From the NCBI GenBank assembly GCA_937922675.1, contig CALAJN010000012.1, forward strand, positions 1-50,606: a stretch of DNA of 50,606 nucleotides, given 5' to 3'. The position numbers and the translations under genes are program-made. Of the stretch, positions 7,719-17,193 are shown in pieces (the stretch's first letter is position 1; every line of letters starts with the position of its first letter). Source of the DNA: an uncultured Granulosicoccaceae bacterium. GTDB taxonomy: Bacteria; Pseudomonadota; Gammaproteobacteria; Granulosicoccales; Granulosicoccaceae. A model generated the notes under the pieces. The model worked only from the letters and a program-made list of their open reading frames with translations, was not told the DNA's origin and made no database searches.

Positions 7719-8435
7719 TCAACCAGCAAGATCAGCAACGTCGTCAATGGGCAAGGGGTCAGGCAGCACATACTTATCCATGTCTCTGCGCGACAGCTCC
7801 CAATGTTGCAGGGTGAGGTCAACACAGTCGGCGGGATTTCTCTGCGCGATGGCATCGATCATCGCCTCGTGTTGTTCTGATGCCTTGACAATGCGCTTTT
7901 GTGATGAGGCGTGATGGACCCGATAAAAGCGCTGACTCATACGCGCATGGTCAATCAGCAAGCGGCCAAGGCTTGGTGTCAGGTACGGTGACGCCGCCAT
8001 CTCTCCAAATTGTTCATGCAGTCGATGGTTGAGCACTACCATGTCCTGCGCGTTTGAGGCCTTCATGGCCTTGTGAAAACGCGCCTGGGTTTTCTTTGCC
8101 GCAGTGATCTGCACCGTACTGGCTTGTTCACAGGCGAGGCGAGCGATGGCCGCATAGATCAACGGGGCGCTTTGAAAGAAGCTGCGCATCGTTGCAAGAT
8201 CCATGGAAGACACCGCAGCGCCCCGATTTGACGCAAGCGACAAGTACCCCTCGCCAGCCAGACGGTGAAACACTTCCCGAAGCGGTGTCCTCGACACCCC
8301 GTATTCGGCCGACAGCGCCACTTCATCAAGAGCGCTGCCTGGACTGAGCTCCAGCGTGAGCACCCGCTGCTTCAGATCGTGATAGCTCTTGAGCTTTCTT
8401 GAATCCTTCATCCGAGCGTCCGTGATTGCCGACAT
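7719..8435 (-). CDS. GntR-family (FCD/FadR-type) transcriptional regulator
   Basis: About 238 residues. The N-terminal winged helix-turn-helix has the typical LDEVALSAEYGVSRTPLREV sequence (near residues 40-60), followed by LAGEGYL. The C-terminal part is an all-helical FCD-like sensor domain. I chose the ATG at 8435; the frame runs open to 8639, but that extension overlaps the palindromic operator and does not look like protein. A second ATG at 8411 is possible. It is the first gene of the catabolic operon and probably represses it until the substrate or an intermediate binds. A palindrome typical of the family lies 26 bp upstream of the start. Confidence 0.85.
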   Translation of the reverse strand: MSAITDARMKDSRKLKSYHDLKQRVLTLELSPGSALDEVALSAEYGVSRTPLREVFHRLAGEGYLSLASNRGAAVSSMDLATMRSFFQSAPLIYAAIARLACEQASTVQITAAKKTQARFHKAMKASNAQDMVVLNHRLHEQFGEMAASPYLTPSLGRLLIDHARMSQRFYRVHHASSQKRIVKASEQHEAMIDAIAQRNPADCVDLTLQHWELSRRDMDKYVLPDPLPIDDVADLAG

Positions 8436-8460
8436 ACGTTTTGACACAGGTCGCCAAAAT

Positions 8461-8477
8461 ATACAAGTTGTATACAA
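8461..8477. promoter_or_regulatory. Probable GntR operator
   Basis: Two overlapping palindromes sit in the 17 bases upstream of the GntR gene: ATACAA-G-TTGTAT (8461-8473) and the perfectly self-complementary TTGTATACAA (8468-8477). TTGTATAC-type sites are typical of FadR/FCD-type GntR proteins. The position, 26 bp before the GntR start codon, suits autoregulation of the operon. Confidence 0.7.
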
Positions 8478-8668
8478 ATCGCACGGCTGGCAATGTCGAC
8501 AAACTCGTCGCGCAATGAGGTCAACATCGAACGGATGCCAAGTCCGGAAGATCGCCTGGCGACCAATGTCGGGTGAGGGGCGAGGCCATTGGTGCACAAT
8601 ACCGATGAAAATATTGCAGTAGAAAAAATATGCATGCACAGGCTGGGAGAATCATGTAACATCGCGTC

Positions 8669-8690
8669 GTGCAGTAATTTTGTACTGCAC
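8669..8690. promoter_or_regulatory. Perfect bipartite palindrome upstream of the restriction operon
   Basis: GTGCAGTA and TACTGCAC form perfect 8-bp arms around a 6-bp spacer, centred about 54 bp before the start of the first restriction-island gene (8734). A further half-site TGCAGTA occurs at 8615-8621. There is no T-run after it, so an operator (or a 5'-UTR hairpin) is more likely than a terminator. Confidence 0.5.
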
Positions 8691-8733: not shown

Positions 8734-9321
8734 ATGCCCCAGGTCTCCGACATCGCCACGATACGAAACGGCTACGCCTTCCGTGGCCGTATCGAGCCAG
8801 ACATGAGTGGAGACACACGGGTGATTCAGGCCAGCGACCTGGCCGCGGGCAGAGAGCTGGACACAGCGGCCCTCGCCTGTGTCCAGCTCGGCGCCAAAGC
8901 AGAACGCTATCAACTGACCGAGAAGGACATCGTGTTCGTGGCGCGCGGTCTGCGGCAGAGAGCGTATCGGCCGGTGCGCGACACGATCACGGGCAAACCG
9001 ATCATCACCGCCTTTGGCCTGCTCGTGATCACCGCCATCGAGTCCCGGGTGCTGCCTGACTACCTGTACTGGGCCTTGAACACGCCTCGCATACAACACG
9101 CTATTGGCAAACTGACCGAAGGCACGAGCCTGTCCTTCATCAGTGACAAGAACTTCGGGCAAGTGGACATCCCGCTCCCGACACTCGACAAACAACTCCA
9201 GATTGAGCAGCTCATGGCAATGCACAGACAACGCGCACAGCTGCGCCAGACACTCACACAACTTGACGACACACTCGTGCACAGCACGGCCTGGTCGCTC
9301 GCTACAGGGATTACAGAATGA
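8734..9321 (+). CDS. Half-size type I restriction specificity (HsdS-like) protein, single TRD
   Basis: This 195-residue protein starts at ATG 8734. The N terminus (VSDIATIRNGYAFRGRIE) and the middle (GLLVITAIESRVLPDYLYWALNTPRI) match one target-recognition domain of HsdS. The end (PTLDKQLQIEQLMAMHRQRAQLRQTL) resembles the helical conserved region that follows a TRD. Only one TRD is present, where HsdS normally has two. Its stop overlaps the hsdM start (ATGA), so it is the first gene of the island and coupled to the methylase gene. In known truncated HsdS variants, single-TRD subunits dimerise and recognise symmetric sites; whether this one binds HsdM is not shown. It could also be a modulator or an ancestral gene half. 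Confidence 0.72.
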   Translation: MPQVSDIATIRNGYAFRGRIEPDMSGDTRVIQASDLAAGRELDTAALACVQLGAKAERYQLTEKDIVFVARGLRQRAYRPVRDTITGKPIITAFGLLVITAIESRVLPDYLYWALNTPRIQHAIGKLTEGTSLSFISDKNFGQVDIPLPTLDKQLQIEQLMAMHRQRAQLRQTLTQLDDTLVHSTAWSLATGITE

Positions 9322-10838
9322 ACGACACCACCGCGGTCAATCAGGACCAGGTCAACAAGGCGGTATGGGCGGCCTGCGATACCTTCAGGGGCACGGTAGA
9401 CCCATCGATCTACAAGGACTTCGTGCTCACCATGCTGTTCCTGAAGTACATCTCCGATGTGCATCAGGACAAACACGATGAGCTCAGCGTGCAATACAAG
9501 GGCAAGCCGGAATTGATTGCCGCGATGATGGAGAGCCAGTCCTTCCAGATTCCCGAAGGGGCCACCTTCAAGGCCTTGTTCAAGGCACGCCAAACACCCG
9601 GCAATGGCACCCGCATCGACAAGGCATTGCACGCAATTGAGGAAGCGAATGGGACCAAGCTCAAAGGCGTGTTCCAGGACATCAGCTTCAACACCGACAA
9701 GCTCGGGGATGAAAAGCAGAAGAACGACATCCTGCGTCACCTGCTGGAGGACTTTGGCAAGGACAGTCTGGATCTCAGGCCCAGCCGCGTCGGCTCACTG
9801 GATGTGATCGGCAACGCCTACGAATTTCTTATCAAGCACTTTGCCGCCACCAGCGGAAAGACCGCCGGTGAGTTCTACACCCCACCGGAAGTCTCTGATC
9901 TGTTGTCCATACTGCTGGAACCGGCCGAAGGCGATCAGATTTGTGACCCGGCCTGTGGATCCGGGTCCTTGTTGATGAAGTGCGGCAAGCAGGTGCAAGC
10001 GCGCTTCAATGGTTCCCGCGAATACGCCCTGTTCGGGCAAGAGGCCATTGGCTCCACCTGGTCACTGGCAAAGATGAACATGTTTCTGCACGGTGAGAAC
10101 AACCACCGCATTGAATGGGGCGACACCATCCGCAACCCCAAGCTGAGGGACAAGGAGGGCGGTCTGCTGCACTTCGATATCGTGACCGCCAACCCGCCGT
10201 TCTCGCTGGACAAGTGGGGGCATGACACCGCAGCGGATGACACCTGGGGCCGCTTCAGGCGTGGTGTTCCGCCAAAGACCAAGGGTGACTATGCGTTTAT
10301 CTCCCACATGATTGAAACGCTGAAACCCAAGACCGGTCGCATGGGTGTTGTAGTACCGCACGGTGTGCTGTTCCGTGCCTCAAGCGAGGGAAAGATACGC
10401 AAGCAACTGATTGACGAGAATCTTTTGCATGCCGTGATTGGCCTGCCTGAAAAACTCTTCTTTGGCACTGGCATTCCTGCAGCCATTCTGATCTTCAAGA
10501 AAGACAAGCGTGACAAGCAGGTGTTGTTCATCGATGCGAGCCGCGAGTTCAAGTCCGGCAAGAATCAGAACATACTGACCGAGGACAACCTTAAGAAGAT
10601 CATTGATACCTACAACGCTCGAGAAAGCGTTGACAAGTACGCCTACCTCGCCACGCTAGAGGAGATACAGGAGAACGACTACAACCTGAACATCCCCCGG
10701 TATGTGGATACGTTTGAAGAAGAGGAGGAAATTGATCTGATGGCGGTACGCGAGGAGCGCTTGAAGTTGCAGAAGGAGCTGGATGCGCTGGAGGATGAGA
10801 TGGCGGGGTATTTGGAGGAGTTGGGTTATGGCTCGTGA
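9318..10838 (+). CDS. hsdM: Type I restriction-modification methyltransferase subunit HsdM
   Basis: A 506-residue N6-adenine DNA methyltransferase. The N-terminal helical HsdM domain spans about residues 1-150. The S-adenosylmethionine site is ICDPACGSGSLL near residues 208-219, and the catalytic motif is NPPF in IVTANPPFSLDKW near residue 291. With two specificity subunits it forms the modification enzyme; with HsdR it forms the restriction complex. It is translationally coupled on both sides: ATGA overlap with the half-S gene and an 11-bp overlap with hsdS. Confidence 0.95.
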   Translation: MNDTTAVNQDQVNKAVWAACDTFRGTVDPSIYKDFVLTMLFLKYISDVHQDKHDELSVQYKGKPELIAAMMESQSFQIPEGATFKALFKARQTPGNGTRIDKALHAIEEANGTKLKGVFQDISFNTDKLGDEKQKNDILRHLLEDFGKDSLDLRPSRVGSLDVIGNAYEFLIKHFAATSGKTAGEFYTPPEVSDLLSILLEPAEGDQICDPACGSGSLLMKCGKQVQARFNGSREYALFGQEAIGSTWSLAKMNMFLHGENNHRIEWGDTIRNPKLRDKEGGLLHFDIVTANPPFSLDKWGHDTAADDTWGRFRRGVPPKTKGDYAFISHMIETLKPKTGRMGVVVPHGVLFRASSEGKIRKQLIDENLLHAVIGLPEKLFFGTGIPAAILIFKKDKRDKQVLFIDASREFKSGKNQNILTEDNLKKIIDTYNARESVDKYAYLATLEEIQENDYNLNIPRYVDTFEEEEEIDLMAVREERLKLQKELDALEDEMAGYLEELGYGS

Positions 10839-12060
10839 GTTACTCGCGTCTGACATTCCAACAGGCTGGACATATGACCTACTAGATCGACTAGCAACAC
10901 GTGGCAGTGGTCATACACCATCAAAGTCCAATCCGAACTACTGGAATGGTGGGATCAAGTGGATCTCACTTTCAGATTCTTCTAAGCTAGATAAGGGTTA
11001 CGTCTTCGAAACAGAGAAGCACATATCACTGGAGGGGCTGAAAAACTCTTCAGCAGTGCTACTACCCGCCGGGACAGTTGTACTTGTGCGCGATGCAGGC
11101 GTCGGAAAAAGCGGGATCATGGCCGAGAGTATGGCTGTCAGCCAACACTTCATTTCATGGACATGCGAAGGCGAGGGCAAAGACAGATTGCACAATTGGT
11201 TTCTTTACAACTGGCTGCAGCTAAACAAAAAGGAATTTGAGCGCCAAGCTATAGGATCGACGATTAAGACAATCGGACTACCGTATTTTAGAAAACTAAA
11301 GATTGCAGCTCCCCCAATCCCAGAACAACGAAAAATCGCCAAGATCCTGCAAACCTGGGATCGCGCCATCGCCACGACGGAAAAACTGATTGAGGCCAGC
11401 AAGCAGCAGAAGAAAGCGTTGATGCAGCAGTTGTTGACGGGGAAGAGGCGGTTTGGTGGGTTTGAGGGGGAGTGGATTACCGGAACATTGGAAAATTTTT
11501 CCGACCATATTTACGGTGGAGGCACTCCTAGCCGGTCGAACTCTGAATTTTGGTGTGGCGACATCCCATGGGTAACTGTAAAAGATCTAGTTGCAGAAAA
11601 AATAAAGGGCGCTCAGGAACACATCACACACACTGGCTTAACCAATAGCTCAGCAAGCCTTGTGGCGTCTGGCACACCGATTTTGGCAACTAGGATGGCT
11701 GTTGGAAAGGTGGCTCTAGCATCTTGTGAAGTAGCAATAAATCAGGATCTCAAAGCAATAAGAGGAAGCAAGCAATTGGATTCAAGCTTCCTTTTCTATT
11801 TTTTGCTCAGCCAGGCGGAAAAACTACAGCGCATGGGTACTGGCAGCACAGTTAAGGGTATCTCTGTCGCCCTCGTAAAATCGCTAGAAATGACGATTCC
11901 TCCTGATGCCGAGCAGCAGAAAAAGATCACAAAAACACTGAAGAATTCAGATTTGAAAATCGAGATCTTGAATTCAAAGTTAAGCAACTTGAAGACCGAA
12001 AGAGCCGCCCTCATGCAGCAACTCCTTACCGGCAACCGTCGCGTCAAAGTGGACCAATAA
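10828..12060 (+). CDS. hsdS: Type I restriction specificity subunit HsdS, two TRDs
   Basis: A 410-residue protein starting at ATG 10828, inside the end of hsdM. Two target-recognition domains are visible: the first about residues 10-165 (GWTYDLLDRLATRGSGHTPS), the second about residues 212-370 (GTLENFSDHIYGGGTPSRSN). Each is followed by a matching helical conserved region, and the repeats end ALMQQLLTGKRR and ALMQQLLTGNRR. This repeat symmetry sets the spacing of the two halves of the recognition site. Both TRD-coding stretches look more AT-rich than the surrounding hsd genes, as expected for exchangeable TRDs. The recognition sequence cannot be predicted from sequence alone. Confidence 0.93.
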   Translation: MARELLASDIPTGWTYDLLDRLATRGSGHTPSKSNPNYWNGGIKWISLSDSSKLDKGYVFETEKHISLEGLKNSSAVLLPAGTVVLVRDAGVGKSGIMAESMAVSQHFISWTCEGEGKDRLHNWFLYNWLQLNKKEFERQAIGSTIKTIGLPYFRKLKIAAPPIPEQRKIAKILQTWDRAIATTEKLIEASKQQKKALMQQLLTGKRRFGGFEGEWITGTLENFSDHIYGGGTPSRSNSEFWCGDIPWVTVKDLVAEKIKGAQEHITHTGLTNSSASLVASGTPILATRMAVGKVALASCEVAINQDLKAIRGSKQLDSSFLFYFLLSQAEKLQRMGTGSTVKGISVALVKSLEMTIPPDAEQQKKITKTLKNSDLKIEILNSKLSNLKTERAALMQQLLTGNRRVKVDQ

Positions 12061-12096: not shown

Positions 12097-13137
12097 ATGA
12101 CACCTTCCCCTAACCCACCACCAGCCGGTGAATTCATCCTCTTCCAGAGCGATGACGGTCAGGTGCGGGTGGAGTGTCGCTTTGAATCAGACACCCTCTG
12201 GCTGTCACAAGCCTTGATCGCTGAGTTGTACGGCGTTACGCCGCAGGCCATCACGCAACACATTCGCGCTGTGTATGACGAGAACGAGCTGGACCTGACA
12301 GCAACCTGTAAGGATTACTTACAAGTTCAAACCGAGGGGCAGCGGCAGGTAAGGCGACAAGTCAGCCACTACAGCCTCCCCATGATCATCGCCGTCGGCT
12401 ACCGCGTCCGCTCCAAGCGCGGCACGCAGTTCCGTCGTTGGGCGACTGAGACCTTGCAGGAGTATCTGGTCAAGGGCTTCGTCATGGATGACGAGCGGCT
12501 CAGGAATCCTCCGGTCGGGGATTCTGCTGTGCCGGATTACTTCGATGAGATGCTGGAGCGCATCCGGGACATTCGGGCGAGTGAGCGCCGGATGTATCTG
12601 CGGGTTCGGGATATCTTCAGCATGGCGGCGGACTACGCACCGAAGGATGCGGACACCGCGCACTTCTTCAGAATCATCCAGAACAAGCTGCATTTCGCCA
12701 GCACGGGCTTGACCGCTGCAGAGTTGATCGCGCAGCGCGTGGATGCGGGCAAGCCGAACGTGGGCTTGACGAGCTTCAAGAGCGATGAGGTGAGAAAGAG
12801 CGATGTCACCATTGCGAAGAACTACCTGAAAGCGGATGAGATTGCGGCGCTCAACCGCATTGTGTCCATGTGGCTGGACTTTGCAGAAGATCAGGCGCTG
12901 CGACGCAAGCAGGTGTTCCTGAAAGATTGGCAGAACAAGCTCGATGAGTTCCTGCGATTCAATGATCGCGACGTACTTGCTGATGCAGGCTCCATGAGCA
13001 AGCAAGCCGCCGACGAAAAGGCACGAGCGGCCTTTGATGACTACGCAAGCCGCCAGCGCAAGCTGAAGGAAGCCGAAGGTGAGCGCGCTAACATAGACGC
13101 CTTGCGGGCACTGACGGATGAGACCCAACGTGACTGA
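12097..13137 (+). CDS. RhuM-family (virulence RhuM) protein
   Basis: A 346-residue protein of the RhuM family. The N terminus (GQVRVECRFESDTLWLSQ, then LIAELYGVTPQAITQHI) and the central RQVSHYSLPMIIAVGYRVRS are the family signatures; the second resembles the KilA-N/Bro-like segment of phage antirepressor proteins. The C-terminal half is helical and charged. The family was named from a Salmonella pathogenicity island and is often found inside type I restriction loci; its biochemical function is unknown. Here it sits 36 bp after hsdS, and its end overlaps the hsdR start by 20 bp. It must therefore be co-translated with the restriction genes. Confidence 0.85.
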   Translation: MTPSPNPPPAGEFILFQSDDGQVRVECRFESDTLWLSQALIAELYGVTPQAITQHIRAVYDENELDLTATCKDYLQVQTEGQRQVRRQVSHYSLPMIIAVGYRVRSKRGTQFRRWATETLQEYLVKGFVMDDERLRNPPVGDSAVPDYFDEMLERIRDIRASERRMYLRVRDIFSMAADYAPKDADTAHFFRIIQNKLHFASTGLTAAELIAQRVDAGKPNVGLTSFKSDEVRKSDVTIAKNYLKADEIAALNRIVSMWLDFAEDQALRRKQVFLKDWQNKLDEFLRFNDRDVLADAGSMSKQAADEKARAAFDDYASRQRKLKEAEGERANIDALRALTDETQRD

Positions 13138-16100
13138 CGCTATAGCCAACTTCAACGAGGAACACAGCGCAAAGATCCCTGCGCTCGCGCTGTTGTCGCA
13201 ACTGGGCTACGAATTCATCCCTCCAGAGCAATGCCTGAAGATGCGCGGCAGTCGCTCTACCGTGATCCTGCCGTCGGTTCTGCGTGAGGTATTGGCAAAG
13301 AGGACCTTTTTCCATCAAGGGCAGCAGTGCACCTTGTCGGACGCGTCAATCGACAAGCTCGTGCACGAGCTCTCACACCCGGCCCTTAACGAGGGGTTGC
13401 GCGCTGCAAACCAGAAGCACCACGTCGCGCTGGCGCACGGTGTGGGGGTAACGCAGTTTGTCGATGGCAAGAGAACCAGCCCCACCATACCCATCATCAA
13501 CTGGGCCGAGCCTGAACAGAACCGCTTTCACTTCACCGAGGAAATGGAGGTGGACAATGCCCAGGGAACGGGCAAGCGCATCCCGGATATCGTCTGCTTC
13601 GTCAATGGCCTGCCCTGGGTGGTGATTGAAGCCAAGCGCCCGGATTCATCCCAGAGCGGCAAGCCCACACTGGGTGAAGGCATTTCGCAGAACATCCGCA
13701 ATCAGAAGTCGGATGAAATCCCGCATCTGTTTGCGCACAGCCAGTTGCTGTTGTCGATCAACGGCCATGAAGGGCGCTACGGTACCTGCGGCACAAAAGA
13801 GACCTTCTGGGCCACCTGGAAGGAAGAAGAGATTGGCGATGCAGAGTTTCTGCGCCTGAAAAACGCAGCACTCAACGATGCGCAGATGTCGGCGCTGTTC
13901 GCGCACAGGCCTGCACGCAGCAGAGAGGAATACGCTGAACTTGTCGCGGGTGGTGATCGCATCGTCACCGATCAGGATCGGCTGATCGTCTCGCTGTTGC
14001 GCCCGGACCGACTGCTGGACATGACGCGTCTGTACACCTTGTTCGATCAGCGCATTGGTCGCATTGTCGCGCGCTATCAGCAAGTGTTTGGTATCAAGGC
14101 GTTGCTTGAGCGCACAACCTCCTTTGATGAAAACGGTGCGCGCCGTGGCGGTGTGTTCTGGCACACCACAGGCTCCGGCAAGTCGTTCACCATGATGTTT
14201 CTGTCGCAAGCCTTGATCTTGCTGGAGGCAATGTCCACCTGCCGTGTTGTTGTAGTCACGGACCGCGTGGACCTGGAAGAACAGTTGGCGAGAACCTTTG
14301 TTGCCGGCGGCGCCTTCACCGAGAAAGAGAGATCCAGCGTTGTTGCCACCACAGGCAAGCGTCTTGCCGAGCAGATCGGTCGCGGTACCGAACGCATCAT
14401 TTTCTCCATCATCAACAAGTTTGGTACCGCAATCCGTCAGCCTGCGTGCTACAACGACAGCCCCGACATCGTGGTGCTCATTGATGAAGGGCATCGCAGC
14501 CAGGGTGGTGAGAACAGTATCCGCATGAAGCAGGCGCTGCCAAAGGCAGCTTTTGTGGCCTTTACCGGCACACCCCTGCTCAAGGACGACAAGACCGAGA
14601 ACAAGTTCGGCAGCATCATCCACTCCTACACCATGCAGCAGGCGGTGCAGGACGGTACGGTCACACCTCTGCTCTACGAGGAACGCATCCCGGTGCTCAG
14701 CACCAACGATCAGGCCATCGACGCCTGGTTCGATCGCTTCACCGACAAACTCACCGACAAGCAACGCGGTGACCTCAAGCGCAAGTTCTCGCAGCAAGGG
14801 CAGATCTATCGCACGGAGGGACGCCTTGAGTTGATCGCCCACGACATCTCCGATCACTTCCAGAACTTCAAGCACTCGGGGCTCAAGGGCCAGCTCGCCT
14901 GCGACTCCAAGGCATCGGCTGTAACCTACAAGCGATTGCTGGACGCCATCGGCAAGGTCAGCTCGGTGGTAGCCATGTCCTCACCGGACACACGCGAGGG
15001 CCACGACGACATCGACACCGAAAGCCGTGATGCGGTGCAGAACTGGTGGAAGAATACCGTCGGCTCGGAGGATGAGAAGAAGTACACCAAACGCATCGTT
15101 GCCGAGTTCGCAACCGATGACGGGCCGGACCTGATGATTGTTGTGGACAAGTTGCTCACAGGCTTTGATGAGCCACGCAACACCGTGCTCTATATCGACA
15201 AGCCCCTCAAGCAGCACAACCTGCTGCAAGCGATTGCGCGCGTGAATCGTTTGCACAGCAAGAAGCAGTTCGGCTACCTGATCGACTACCGCGGCATCCT
15301 CAAGGAGCTGGACGCCACCATCAGCAATTATCAGGATCTGGCCGAACGCACCCAGGCAGGCTTCGATATCGACGACCTTGAAGGCCTGTACAGCGCGATG
15401 CAAACCGAATACAAGAAATTGCCTGGCCTCTACAAGGACCTCTGGGCCTTTTTTGCTTCGGTGCACAACAAGCAGGACGGTCCCGCACTGCGCCAGGTCT
15501 TGAGCCCGCGCATCGAGACCATTGATGGGCAACTGACAGACCTCAACCTCAAGGCACGCAACGACTTCTACGATGCCCTGACCGCCTTCGCCAACTGCAT
15601 GAAGGTGGCTCTGCAGTCCGCTACGTACTTTGATGACAACAGCTTCGACGACAAGCGTCAGCGCTACAAGGACACCTTGAAGATGATGACGCAACTGCGT
15701 CAACAGGTGCGTGAGGATGCCGAGGAAACCGTGGACTTCGATGAATACGCCGACAGCATTGGCAAGCTGCTGGACAAGCACATTGGCGGCGTTGCCATCC
15801 AGGAGCCCGAGGGCGCCTATCTGGTCAGCAATCTCGGCAAGAACGCAAGCCCGGATGAAGAGCTGAGCGATACCGAGGCGCGCAATCGCCGCGATCGCAT
15901 CACAGGTCGCGCCACCCGCAAGATAGAGCAGGACCTGGCAGACGACCCCTACGCACAGGCCTATTTTTCACGGCTTCTGCAGGACGCCATTGAGAAGGCC
16001 AAGGCCCTGTTCGATGCACCCGTGAAGCAGTACCTGTTGTTCAACGACTTCGAGCAACAGCTCGACCAAAGGCATATACCCCATCTGCCCAACGACAGAC

Positions 16101-16402
16101 TCAAAGCACTTGAGCCTGGCAAGCAGCGGCATGTGCAGGCCTACTACGGACTGCTGTTGATGCAGCTGGGCGAACCGCCGCCACTAAGTGAGGAGCGCTG
16201 TTTTGAGCACGCCGTACAGATAGACGATGTGGTGAGAAAGTCGGTTGCCGAGTTTTCCATCAACCCGCAGGAAATCGAGAACCAGATACGCCAGCAACTG
16301 CTACCTCAGCTGTTTGAAGACACAGGGCTCGAGACGGCAAAAACCCTCATCGACGAGGTCGTGCAGATCACGCGGCTAGGGCTCTCCGGGCACAGGCACT
16401 GA
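13118..16402 (+). CDS. hsdR: Type I restriction endonuclease subunit HsdR
   Basis: A 1094-residue protein of usual HsdR length. The N-terminal nuclease has the PD-(E/D)XK pattern: RIPDIVCFVNG, then VVIEAKRPD near residue 170. The translocase motor follows, with Walker A HTTGSGKSFTM near residue 350, a DEAD-like DEGH box near residue 456, and FTGTPL. The LLTGFDEPRN and QAIARVNR motifs of the second RecA lobe come next, then a helical C-terminal region for HsdM contact. I used the ATG at 13118, inside rhuM; a GTG at 13130 giving VTDAIANFNEEH is an equally good start. All catalytic motifs are intact. Confidence 0.95.
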   Translation: MRPNVTDAIANFNEEHSAKIPALALLSQLGYEFIPPEQCLKMRGSRSTVILPSVLREVLAKRTFFHQGQQCTLSDASIDKLVHELSHPALNEGLRAANQKHHVALAHGVGVTQFVDGKRTSPTIPIINWAEPEQNRFHFTEEMEVDNAQGTGKRIPDIVCFVNGLPWVVIEAKRPDSSQSGKPTLGEGISQNIRNQKSDEIPHLFAHSQLLLSINGHEGRYGTCGTKETFWATWKEEEIGDAEFLRLKNAALNDAQMSALFAHRPARSREEYAELVAGGDRIVTDQDRLIVSLLRPDRLLDMTRLYTLFDQRIGRIVARYQQVFGIKALLERTTSFDENGARRGGVFWHTTGSGKSFTMMFLSQALILLEAMSTCRVVVVTDRVDLEEQLARTFVAGGAFTEKERSSVVATTGKRLAEQIGRGTERIIFSIINKFGTAIRQPACYNDSPDIVVLIDEGHRSQGGENSIRMKQALPKAAFVAFTGTPLLKDDKTENKFGSIIHSYTMQQAVQDGTVTPLLYEERIPVLSTNDQAIDAWFDRFTDKLTDKQRGDLKRKFSQQGQIYRTEGRLELIAHDISDHFQNFKHSGLKGQLACDSKASAVTYKRLLDAIGKVSSVVAMSSPDTREGHDDIDTESRDAVQNWWKNTVGSEDEKKYTKRIVAEFATDDGPDLMIVVDKLLTGFDEPRNTVLYIDKPLKQHNLLQAIARVNRLHSKKQFGYLIDYRGILKELDATISNYQDLAERTQAGFDIDDLEGLYSAMQTEYKKLPGLYKDLWAFFASVHNKQDGPALRQVLSPRIETIDGQLTDLNLKARNDFYDALTAFANCMKVALQSATYFDDNSFDDKRQRYKDTLKMMTQLRQQVREDAEETVDFDEYADSIGKLLDKHIGGVAIQEPEGAYLVSNLGKNASPDEELSDTEARNRRDRITGRATRKIEQDLADDPYAQAYFSRLLQDAIEKAKALFDAPVKQYLLFNDFEQQLDQRHIPHLPNDRLKALEPGKQRHVQAYYGLLLMQLGEPPPLSEERCFEHAVQIDDVVRKSVAEFSINPQEIENQIRQQLLPQLFEDTGLETAKTLIDEVVQITRLGLSGHRH

Positions 16403-17193
16403 TGGCTGAATGCGACACAGCACCCAGCGAGGGGAGGGAGATCTACGGCTTCATCTATGGCGAGGAACACATCACCTACCGCGTCAAGCGAGAGGTGCCC
16501 GAGCCTGGCAAGCGCCGCAGGATACGCATCAGCATCCCCCTGGACACGCAAGTACTGAACACGCAAGTAGTCGTCAACGCTCCGGACGACGCAACGGGGC
16601 ATGACATCCACGATGCGGTGATGAAACGCGCCAAGTGGATACACGACAACCTGCAGAGCTTCAGACGGCAGCAGGAGCATGTGCAGCAGCGGTTCTACGT
16701 CAGCGGTGAGATGCAGTTCTACCTCGGGCGCCGCCACGTGCTGAAGGTACTGGAACAGCCTGGGGCTACACCCAGCGTCAGGATGGCGCGAGGCAAACTG
16801 GTTGTGGTGCTGGCCCCGGCGCGCGAGCGCACCGAGCGGGTCAAGGCACTGGTGCAGCAGTGGTACCTGCGGCGCGCGCAGCATGTGTTTGAGGCGCGGT
16901 TGCACGCCCTGATTCCACAGACGCCGTGGGCAGCGTCAGTGCCCGACTACCGCATTCTGCCGATGACAAAGCAATGGGGAAGCTGTTCGGCGCGCGGCAC
17001 GGTGATGCTCAACCCGCATCTGGTCAAGGCCCCACGTGAGTGCATTGACTACGTGATACTCCACGAGTTGTGTCACCTGCAGGAACACAACCACAGCGAG
17101 CGCTTCTACACGCTGCTCAGCCGTGCGATGCCACAGTGGCAGAGCGTCAAGCGTCAGCTTGATGACATGGCGGAGTTGCTGCTCAACGAGTAG
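16402..17193 (+). CDS. YgjP-like (DUF45/M48-type) zinc metallopeptidase
   Basis: A 263-residue protein. The C-terminal part has the zinc motif VILHELCHLQEHNHSERFY (HExxH near residue 221, third ligand His downstream), preceded by TKQWGSCSARGTVMLNP, the standard WGSC segment of the YgjP family. The N-terminal part is the usual family beta-rich region. YgjP-like peptidases are frequent last genes of type I restriction operons, but their role there is unproven; processing or release of restriction subunits is one idea. The start ATG shares one base with the hsdR stop (TGATG). It ends the island; the next gene begins 231 bp later. Confidence 0.87.
   Translation: MAECDTAPSEGREIYGFIYGEEHITYRVKREVPEPGKRRRIRISIPLDTQVLNTQVVVNAPDDATGHDIHDAVMKRAKWIHDNLQSFRRQQEHVQQRFYVSGEMQFYLGRRHVLKVLEQPGATPSVRMARGKLVVVLAPARERTERVKALVQQWYLRRAQHVFEARLHALIPQTPWAASVPDYRILPMTKQWGSCSARGTVMLNPHLVKAPRECIDYVILHELCHLQEHNHSERFYTLLSRAMPQWQSVKRQLDDMAELLLNE

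Follow-up and report, generated by a model that had tools for sequence, protein, structure and literature searches.

A single-domain HsdS-like protein as a probable autoregulator of a Type I restriction operon in Granulosicoccaceae and related cassettes

Introduction

The transcriptional control of Type I restriction-modification (R-M) systems is largely open. A recent review names the EcoKI promoters and one controller (C) protein in this context (PMC12707154), and RptR is a new addition: in the RRDM island of enteropathogenic Escherichia coli (EPEC) its own promoter contains several palindromic sites, to which it binds as a repressor (PMC12255303). Here we consider a gene in a comparable place, on contig CALAJN010000012.1 of an uncultured Granulosicoccaceae bacterium, of which a stretch of 50,606 nucleotides was analysed (the window, which is this whole stretch and not the feature itself). 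The gene, called half-S below, encodes an HsdS-like protein with a single target recognition domain (TRD) and precedes hsdM and a complete, two-TRD hsdS. Sequence comparison indicates that half-S probably derives from HsdS and binds DNA to regulate the whole restriction operon, its own gene included.

Half-S shares with RptR the first position of an operon, which in the EPEC island continues with hsdM, hsdS, cargo, hsdR and an M48 peptidase (PMC12255303). RptR is, however, a helical protein of 79 amino acids (aa) with a 6-base-pair (bp) site, TAGCTA, whereas half-S is a 195-aa protein of HsdS fold with putative bipartite sites of ~16–23 bp, and membership of the RptR family was ruled out on that fold and length. 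No RptR-like gene was seen by eye in seven related loci lacking half-S, no RptR sequence having been used as query, and in 3 of 23 such loci a single TAGCTA stands no more than 400 bp from hsdM. C proteins, including that of a Mycoplasma gallisepticum Type I locus, are also small regulators encoded ahead of R-M genes; they are described as helix-turn-helix proteins (PMC12707154), whereas half-S matches Methylase_S only.

Single-TRD specificity (S) proteins have been described in the Type 1 1/2 methylases M.AhdI, M.BsaBI and M.PshAI and in the Type I system NgoAV, where they pair and read an interrupted palindrome (PMC3874165). An engineered half-HsdS likewise forms an active enzyme with a palindromic target (PMC6158711), and the dimerisation of half-HsdS proteins invoked in a preliminary description of the locus is hence documented. 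The M.AhdI-type proteins and NgoAV are methylases with 3-bp half-sites and, in the published account, no second full HsdS (PMC3874165); the half-S operon has a complete HsdS, and its putative site is rare in the genome. Half-S was not assigned to the Type 1 1/2 methylases, as it is not the only S protein of its operon. No report of a half-HsdS as a regulator was found in the open-licence PMC literature, which was also searched for this cassette and which covers neither preprints nor the majority of subscription papers.

Half-S is an HsdS-fold protein

Half-S (8734–9321, + strand; ATG at 8734, stop at 9321) matches one Pfam family at E ≤ 0.01, namely Methylase_S, once and with 25.3 bits (cut-off 22); 19 of 27 half-S family members match Methylase_S at the same E value. 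An AlphaFold model built from 28 aligned relatives, namely 27 half-S proteins and a stretch of a full HsdS, has a predicted local distance difference test (pLDDT) score of 88.6 and a predicted template modelling (pTM) score of 0.81, the pLDDT from the single sequence being only 41, and contains one TRD and one 41-residue helix (residues 151–191). Its best fold match is Esub1, which likewise has one TRD in ~200 aa and was co-crystallised with Prx (PDB 8vsq/8vsr; Z 20.5 and 19.8 over 182–183 residues); half-S is only 15% identical to Esub1, on which no paper was found in the open-licence PMC literature. Halves of S proteins also rank among the best solved matches; those to HsdS structures score Z 12.5–15.2 and that to PacII S 18.5. 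The Pfam score above the curated cut-off and the TRD-plus-helix fold place half-S among HsdS/Methylase_S proteins, and the single-TRD gene of 195 residues with one helical repeat, as first described, is borne out.

The coupling to hsdM (9318–10838, + strand; 506 aa, Pfam N6_Mtase and HsdM_N) noted earlier is present as an ATGA overlap at 9318–9321. The complete hsdS behind it (10828–12060, + strand; 410 aa, ATG at 10828) is likewise found, with two TRDs and two Methylase_S matches (143.3 bits per protein), and its start overlaps the end of hsdM by 11 bp. Half-S is 24% identical to TRD1 and 18% to TRD2 of this HsdS, against a shuffled baseline of ~19%, and by this comparison is a copy of neither, as had been stated. 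At such a random level of identity a phase-variable duplicated hsdS (phasevarion) was dropped as an explanation; recombination repeats were not searched.

A decaying hsdS relic might be suspected from the short length of half-S relative to HsdS, from its weak Pfam score and from a related locus (L077, counted among the 23 half-S loci of the first HsdM sample below) that holds merely a 105-aa piece. Such a relic is very improbable: frames of at least 184 aa are open in 30 of 31 half-S loci sampled through HsdM, and residues are conserved across the family.

Half-S and HsdS are inherited differently

Between the window and a second genome of the same genus (G023), identity is 88% for HsdM, 79% for RhuM, 79% for HsdR, 60% for SprT and 61% for half-S over its length, and 30% for HsdS. 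Within HsdS, the two TRDs are 20% and 18% identical, which is the shuffled level, and the CR1 segment 92%. Over 171 pairs from 19 loci, which were picked by half-S similarity and are thus biased in favour of half-S, mean identity is 34% for the half-S TRD, 21.7% for HsdS TRD1 and 24.9% for TRD2, with 19% for shuffled sequences; the half-S TRD is the more similar in 96% of pairs against TRD1 and in 91% against TRD2. HsdS segment boundaries were partly set by hand, and a Methylobacter locus in which no boundary could be located was left out. By these comparisons half-S does not evolve as an exchangeable specificity subunit would, as its TRD stays one alignable family while the HsdS TRDs are swapped. 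The helix of half-S is on average 31% identical in the same pairs, compared with 53% and 48% for the HsdS helices, which suggests that half-S may not be bound to HsdM in the manner of HsdS. Vibrio penaeicida and Proteus illustrate this drift, with 98% identity in HsdM, 90% in HsdS CR1 and 26% in the half-S helix.

These figures bear on whether half-S could be a second specificity subunit, such that (half-S)2 with HsdM would methylate, and with HsdR cut, an interrupted palindrome throughout the genome, beside the asymmetric site of HsdS. Precedent for this exists in the engineered half-HsdS (PMC6158711) and in NgoAV and the M.AhdI-type enzymes, which do so naturally (PMC3874165); half-S and hsdM are tightly coupled, and divergence is faster in half-S than in HsdM. 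V. gigantis and B. finegoldii, moreover, have an N-6 methylase gene after half-S but no full S immediately downstream (L022, 8983–10946; L027, 8974–11030), and these pairs are perhaps Type 1 1/2 methylases and kin of the regulator's ancestor. A second specificity subunit is nevertheless unlikely, given the single alignable TRD family, a helix that is not conserved along with HsdM, and putative sites that are rare in the genome, with half-sites longer than the 3 bp of M.AhdI and NgoAV (PMC3874165). The earlier proposal of a competition between both S proteins for HsdM, by which the cell would switch methylation patterns, is disfavoured on the same TRD and helix evidence and by a site core that occurs once in 3.63 Mb (see below).

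Paired palindromes in half-S promoters

Reading of the promoters revealed perfect dyads upstream of half-S genes. Enumeration in 46 half-S loci gave CTGTA-N7-TACAG in six, CATCA-N7-TGATG in six and CTGTA-N8-TACAG in three, the last with two copies each, 58–63 bp apart. Seven exact 5+5 dyads are common to at least three of the 46 promoters; 100 shuffles gave 0.01 on average and never more than 1. A weak test, based on the best dyad of each locus alone, gave p ≤ 0.05 in 14 of the 46 loci and in 3 of 8 additional half-S loci, among which the dyads of L095 and L096 are probably terminators. This level was reached by none of 23 half-S-less hsdM promoters, 17 of them from one bacterial family and so not independent, and by 2 of 54 windows inside hsdM.

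In a later set, drawn from viral-collection contigs by protein similarity, 31 of 32 group-A loci have CTGTA-N7/8-TACAG, which stands at −28 to −30; many of the loci L117–L148 are closely related to one another. One class-B locus of this set (L149) carries the class-B dyad twice, and two others (L150, L152) carry TCAGTA-N7-TACTGA twice. The arrangement is best resolved in group A: among the 41 loci with CTGTA-N7/8-TACAG, an upstream half-site is found in 40 and a TTGAC 27–34 bp before the operator in 40, so that the order is upstream half-site, TTGAC −35 box and then the operator ~30 bp downstream of the box, with 57–69 bp between the starts of the two copies in 40 of 41. Across 89 loci, CTGTA-N7/8-TACAG has 47 matches in promoter sequence (13.8 kb) and none in the remaining 1.05 Mb; the matches fall in 41 loci, of which the later set supplied 31; GCATCA-N7-TGATGC has 9 promoter matches and none elsewhere, and CATCA-N7-TGATG has 10 and 6. 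The spacers are like those of Type I targets, which are 5–9 bp (PMC12707154), as would be expected for the target of a half-HsdS dimer. At about −25 of half-S, L071, L074 and L116 share a conserved, partly palindromic site (like TTGTCGTAACGCCGTTTTTGCAA) that forms no clean dyad.

The sequence of the palindrome follows the class of half-S. Identity between half-S proteins in 16 loci is 47% within the same motif class versus 35% otherwise (permutation p 1e-4). Among held-out loci the class-B site was found in 7 of 15 class B and 2 of 22 unclassed loci but in none of the 4 of class A, and the class-A consensus in none of the 15 class B or 22 unclassed loci. The sites are also rare: in genome G863 the two operators are the sole matches, against 22 for the reversed control; G776 (control 2), G284 and G321 (control 0 in both) have two each, one of them at half-S. 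At the level of the family, then, palindromic operators lie in the promoter of the putative regulator's own gene and follow its type; the pattern is weaker in the window and was not seen in many members.

Could the dyads serve something else, as sites of another cassette protein or as RNA hairpins (attenuator or terminator), with the role of half-S unrelated to them? The window dyad is terminator-like by scan, those of L095 and L096 resemble the terminator of the upstream gene, and a dyad is present in E. coli loci that have no half-S. Against a hairpin, the outer copy in group A is upstream of the TTGAC box and therefore not transcribed from that promoter. Since the motif class also tracks the half-S class, and the half-S-less promoters gave no significant dyad, we regard this explanation as quite improbable.

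The promoter in the window

Two candidate operators precede half-S in the window. O2 (8669–8690, no strand assigned) is a perfect dyad, GTGCAGTA-ATTTTG-TACTGCAC (TGCAGTA-N6-TACTGCA; p = 0.03 versus shuffles), and O1 (8615–8634, no strand assigned), which starts 55 bp before O2, is an imperfect copy with 3 mismatches of 14. Between them lies a weak candidate sigma-70 promoter (8635–8662, + strand; TGCACA, 16 bp, TAACAT), recognised by eye with 8 of 12 positions and proposed from its position only. The left half-site of O1 falls within a 12-mer that also occurs upstream of half-S in G023. The O2 core, CAGTA-N6-TACTG, occurs once in the 3.63-Mb genome, at this promoter, and the reversed control pattern four times; with up to two mismatches there are 14 genomic sites versus 11 for the control, and so no sign of a genome-wide regulon for the site. 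O2 is unremarkable alone, and its reading as a candidate operator is drawn from the half-S family. By eye, the half-S of G023 (L015) starts with a GTG that overlaps the stop of a mini open reading frame (TAGTG), and a TTGACA box is located some 180–190 bp upstream.

Evidence that weighs against autoregulation

Several observations run counter to half-S as an autoregulator, and those from the window concern the operators first. O1 is imperfect, and shuffles of the window give at least three such matches in 22 of 100 cases; the window contains 22 perfect 8+8 dyads (spacer 3–9, several overlapping); O2 is at −64 and not at ~−28; and a promoter scan found none above threshold. The G023 half-S promoter has no clear dyad despite the common half-site. 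Among relatives, no operator was recognised in many half-S loci (e.g. L063, L064, L077, L098, L100, Enterobacter and V. gigantis), and the class-A consensus was found in merely one of four held-out class A loci. Another dyad (GATGCA-N6-TGCATC or similar, ~48 bp before hsdM, p 0.055 to 0.19) is carried by half-S-less E. coli-type loci (L078, L090–L092). The motif is for the most part inherited together with both half-S and HsdM, so another cassette protein could be the one that binds it.

The inheritance data also contain exceptions. In 9% of pairs the higher identity is that of HsdS TRD2, e.g. 98% versus 92% for half-S, and the half-S TRDs of V. penaeicida and Proteus are 42% identical despite 98% in HsdM. 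As these operons have near-identical HsdM, half-S may itself be replaced or evolve fast.

Distribution of half-S

Half-S followed by hsdM, often overlapping, was found on plasmids of Alpha-, Beta- and Gammaproteobacteria, with hsdS, variable cargo, hsdR and SprT after them as far as annotation and the fetched stretch reach, and the arrangement recurs in many genera. A half-S-like match was present in 51 plasmid records, from which 23 places were fetched; A. baumannii, where the match falls within a full HsdS, and Aeromonas, which lacked annotation, were excluded. Having been found through half-S itself, these loci give no measure of its frequency, and loci were hence resampled by HsdM. A half-S of the same family, recognised at 71 bits or more by the profile of the half-S-selected set compared above, precedes hsdM in 31 of 51 such loci: directly or closely upstream in 23 of 27 loci of the first sample (from 369 and 398 genomes), and in 6 of 6 (another class) and 2 of 18 (one family) in further samples. 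One more HsdM search added no locus.

Half-S is absent from the three E. coli chromosomal loci read, out of 551 matching records, and these loci nevertheless end in the same protease family (336–339 bits). Searches for half-S returned one distant HsdS only among one-genome-per-species contigs, and nothing among phage records. An HsdM tree was built with 85 tips, 62 of which carry half-S; some of the tips had been picked by half-S, namely 21 plasmid loci, G023 and 8 loci of the viral collection. Presence of half-S changes 5 times on this tree, compared with a mean of 20.5 and a minimum of 16 for shuffled tips, and half-S therefore looks ancestral and lost in a few lineages.

The cargo between hsdM, hsdS and hsdR changes from cassette to cassette. 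From annotations, RhuM, an HAD hydrolase, a Shedu nuclease, DUF6119/TIGR04141 and Fic were noted, as were a PDDEXK nuclease, a kinase, Abi and an AAA ATPase (window 12097–13137 and L010, L011, L013, L014, L018 and L023–L025).

Gene content and neighbourhood of the operon

The locus extends past 12060, where the preliminary description ended. Behind hsdS lie a RhuM-family cargo gene (12097–13137, + strand; Pfam RhuM, PADLOC candidate PDC-S05), hsdR (13118–16402, + strand; 1094 aa, HsdR family match) and a gene for a YgjP/SprT-like zinc metalloprotease (16402–17193, + strand; 263 aa), the recurring last gene of the cassette. The whole operon is on the + strand with short gene overlaps, the sole exception being a 36-bp gap ahead of RhuM. 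With HsdM, a two-TRD HsdS and HsdR within one operon, the locus is by gene content a Type I R-M system, for which ATP-dependent restriction and N6-methyladenine (m6A) modification are predicted.

The next gene upstream of half-S encodes a GntR/FCD regulator (7719–8639, − strand). A perfect palindrome, TATACAA-G-TTGTATA (8460–8474), lies inside the 5′ end of its longest frame and may be the regulator's own operator, if the gene starts further in. The same genome holds a second, distant Type I system (L016, G000:C5:205000-217000), whose HsdM and HsdR are 25% and 23% identical to those of the window.

Proposed regulation and its implications

If half-S is an autoregulator, two molecules would pair through their single helix, like the two halves of HsdS, and each TRD of the dimer would read one half-site. 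With dimers at both operators, transcription of the whole operon, from half-S through hsdM, hsdS, cargo and hsdR to the protease gene, would then be blocked or tuned, and free half-S would meter the dose of the operon, much as RptR does in the EPEC island. By the position of the operators and the analogy with RptR, half-S is most simply a repressor; activation, or joint action with HsdM including methylation of the operators, is possible. The earlier suggestion that half-S may regulate the system is in this way kept as transcriptional autoregulation through promoter operators, and given up as regulation through competition for HsdM.

Methylation may enter this scheme in two ways, both of which are doubtful. 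Half-S with HsdM could be a local methylase of its own operators, the methylation state setting expression, for example as a timer on cell entry; this overlaps with autoregulation by half-S and does not compete with it for likelihood. Operators of Type I geometry, the translational coupling of half-S to hsdM and the methyltransferase-based autoregulation known in Type II systems (PMC12707154) are consistent with it, and the divergence of the half-S helix, where HsdM does not diverge, speaks against it. Equally tentatively, the half-S dimer, alone or with HsdM, might be a methylation-sensitive operon switch that reads, and perhaps marks, nearly genome-unique operators while the full HsdS changes specificity freely; on arrival of the cassette in a new cell, modification would then come before restriction.

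If half-S does regulate its operon, the common label ‘restriction endonuclease subunit S’, where it stands beside a full S, would hide a family of regulators, and an enzyme domain would have been recruited as a transcription factor. The DNA code of its TRD would be readable from promoters, and the operators together with the half-S sequences would form a natural TRD-to-half-site data set, which is otherwise hard to obtain for Type I TRDs.

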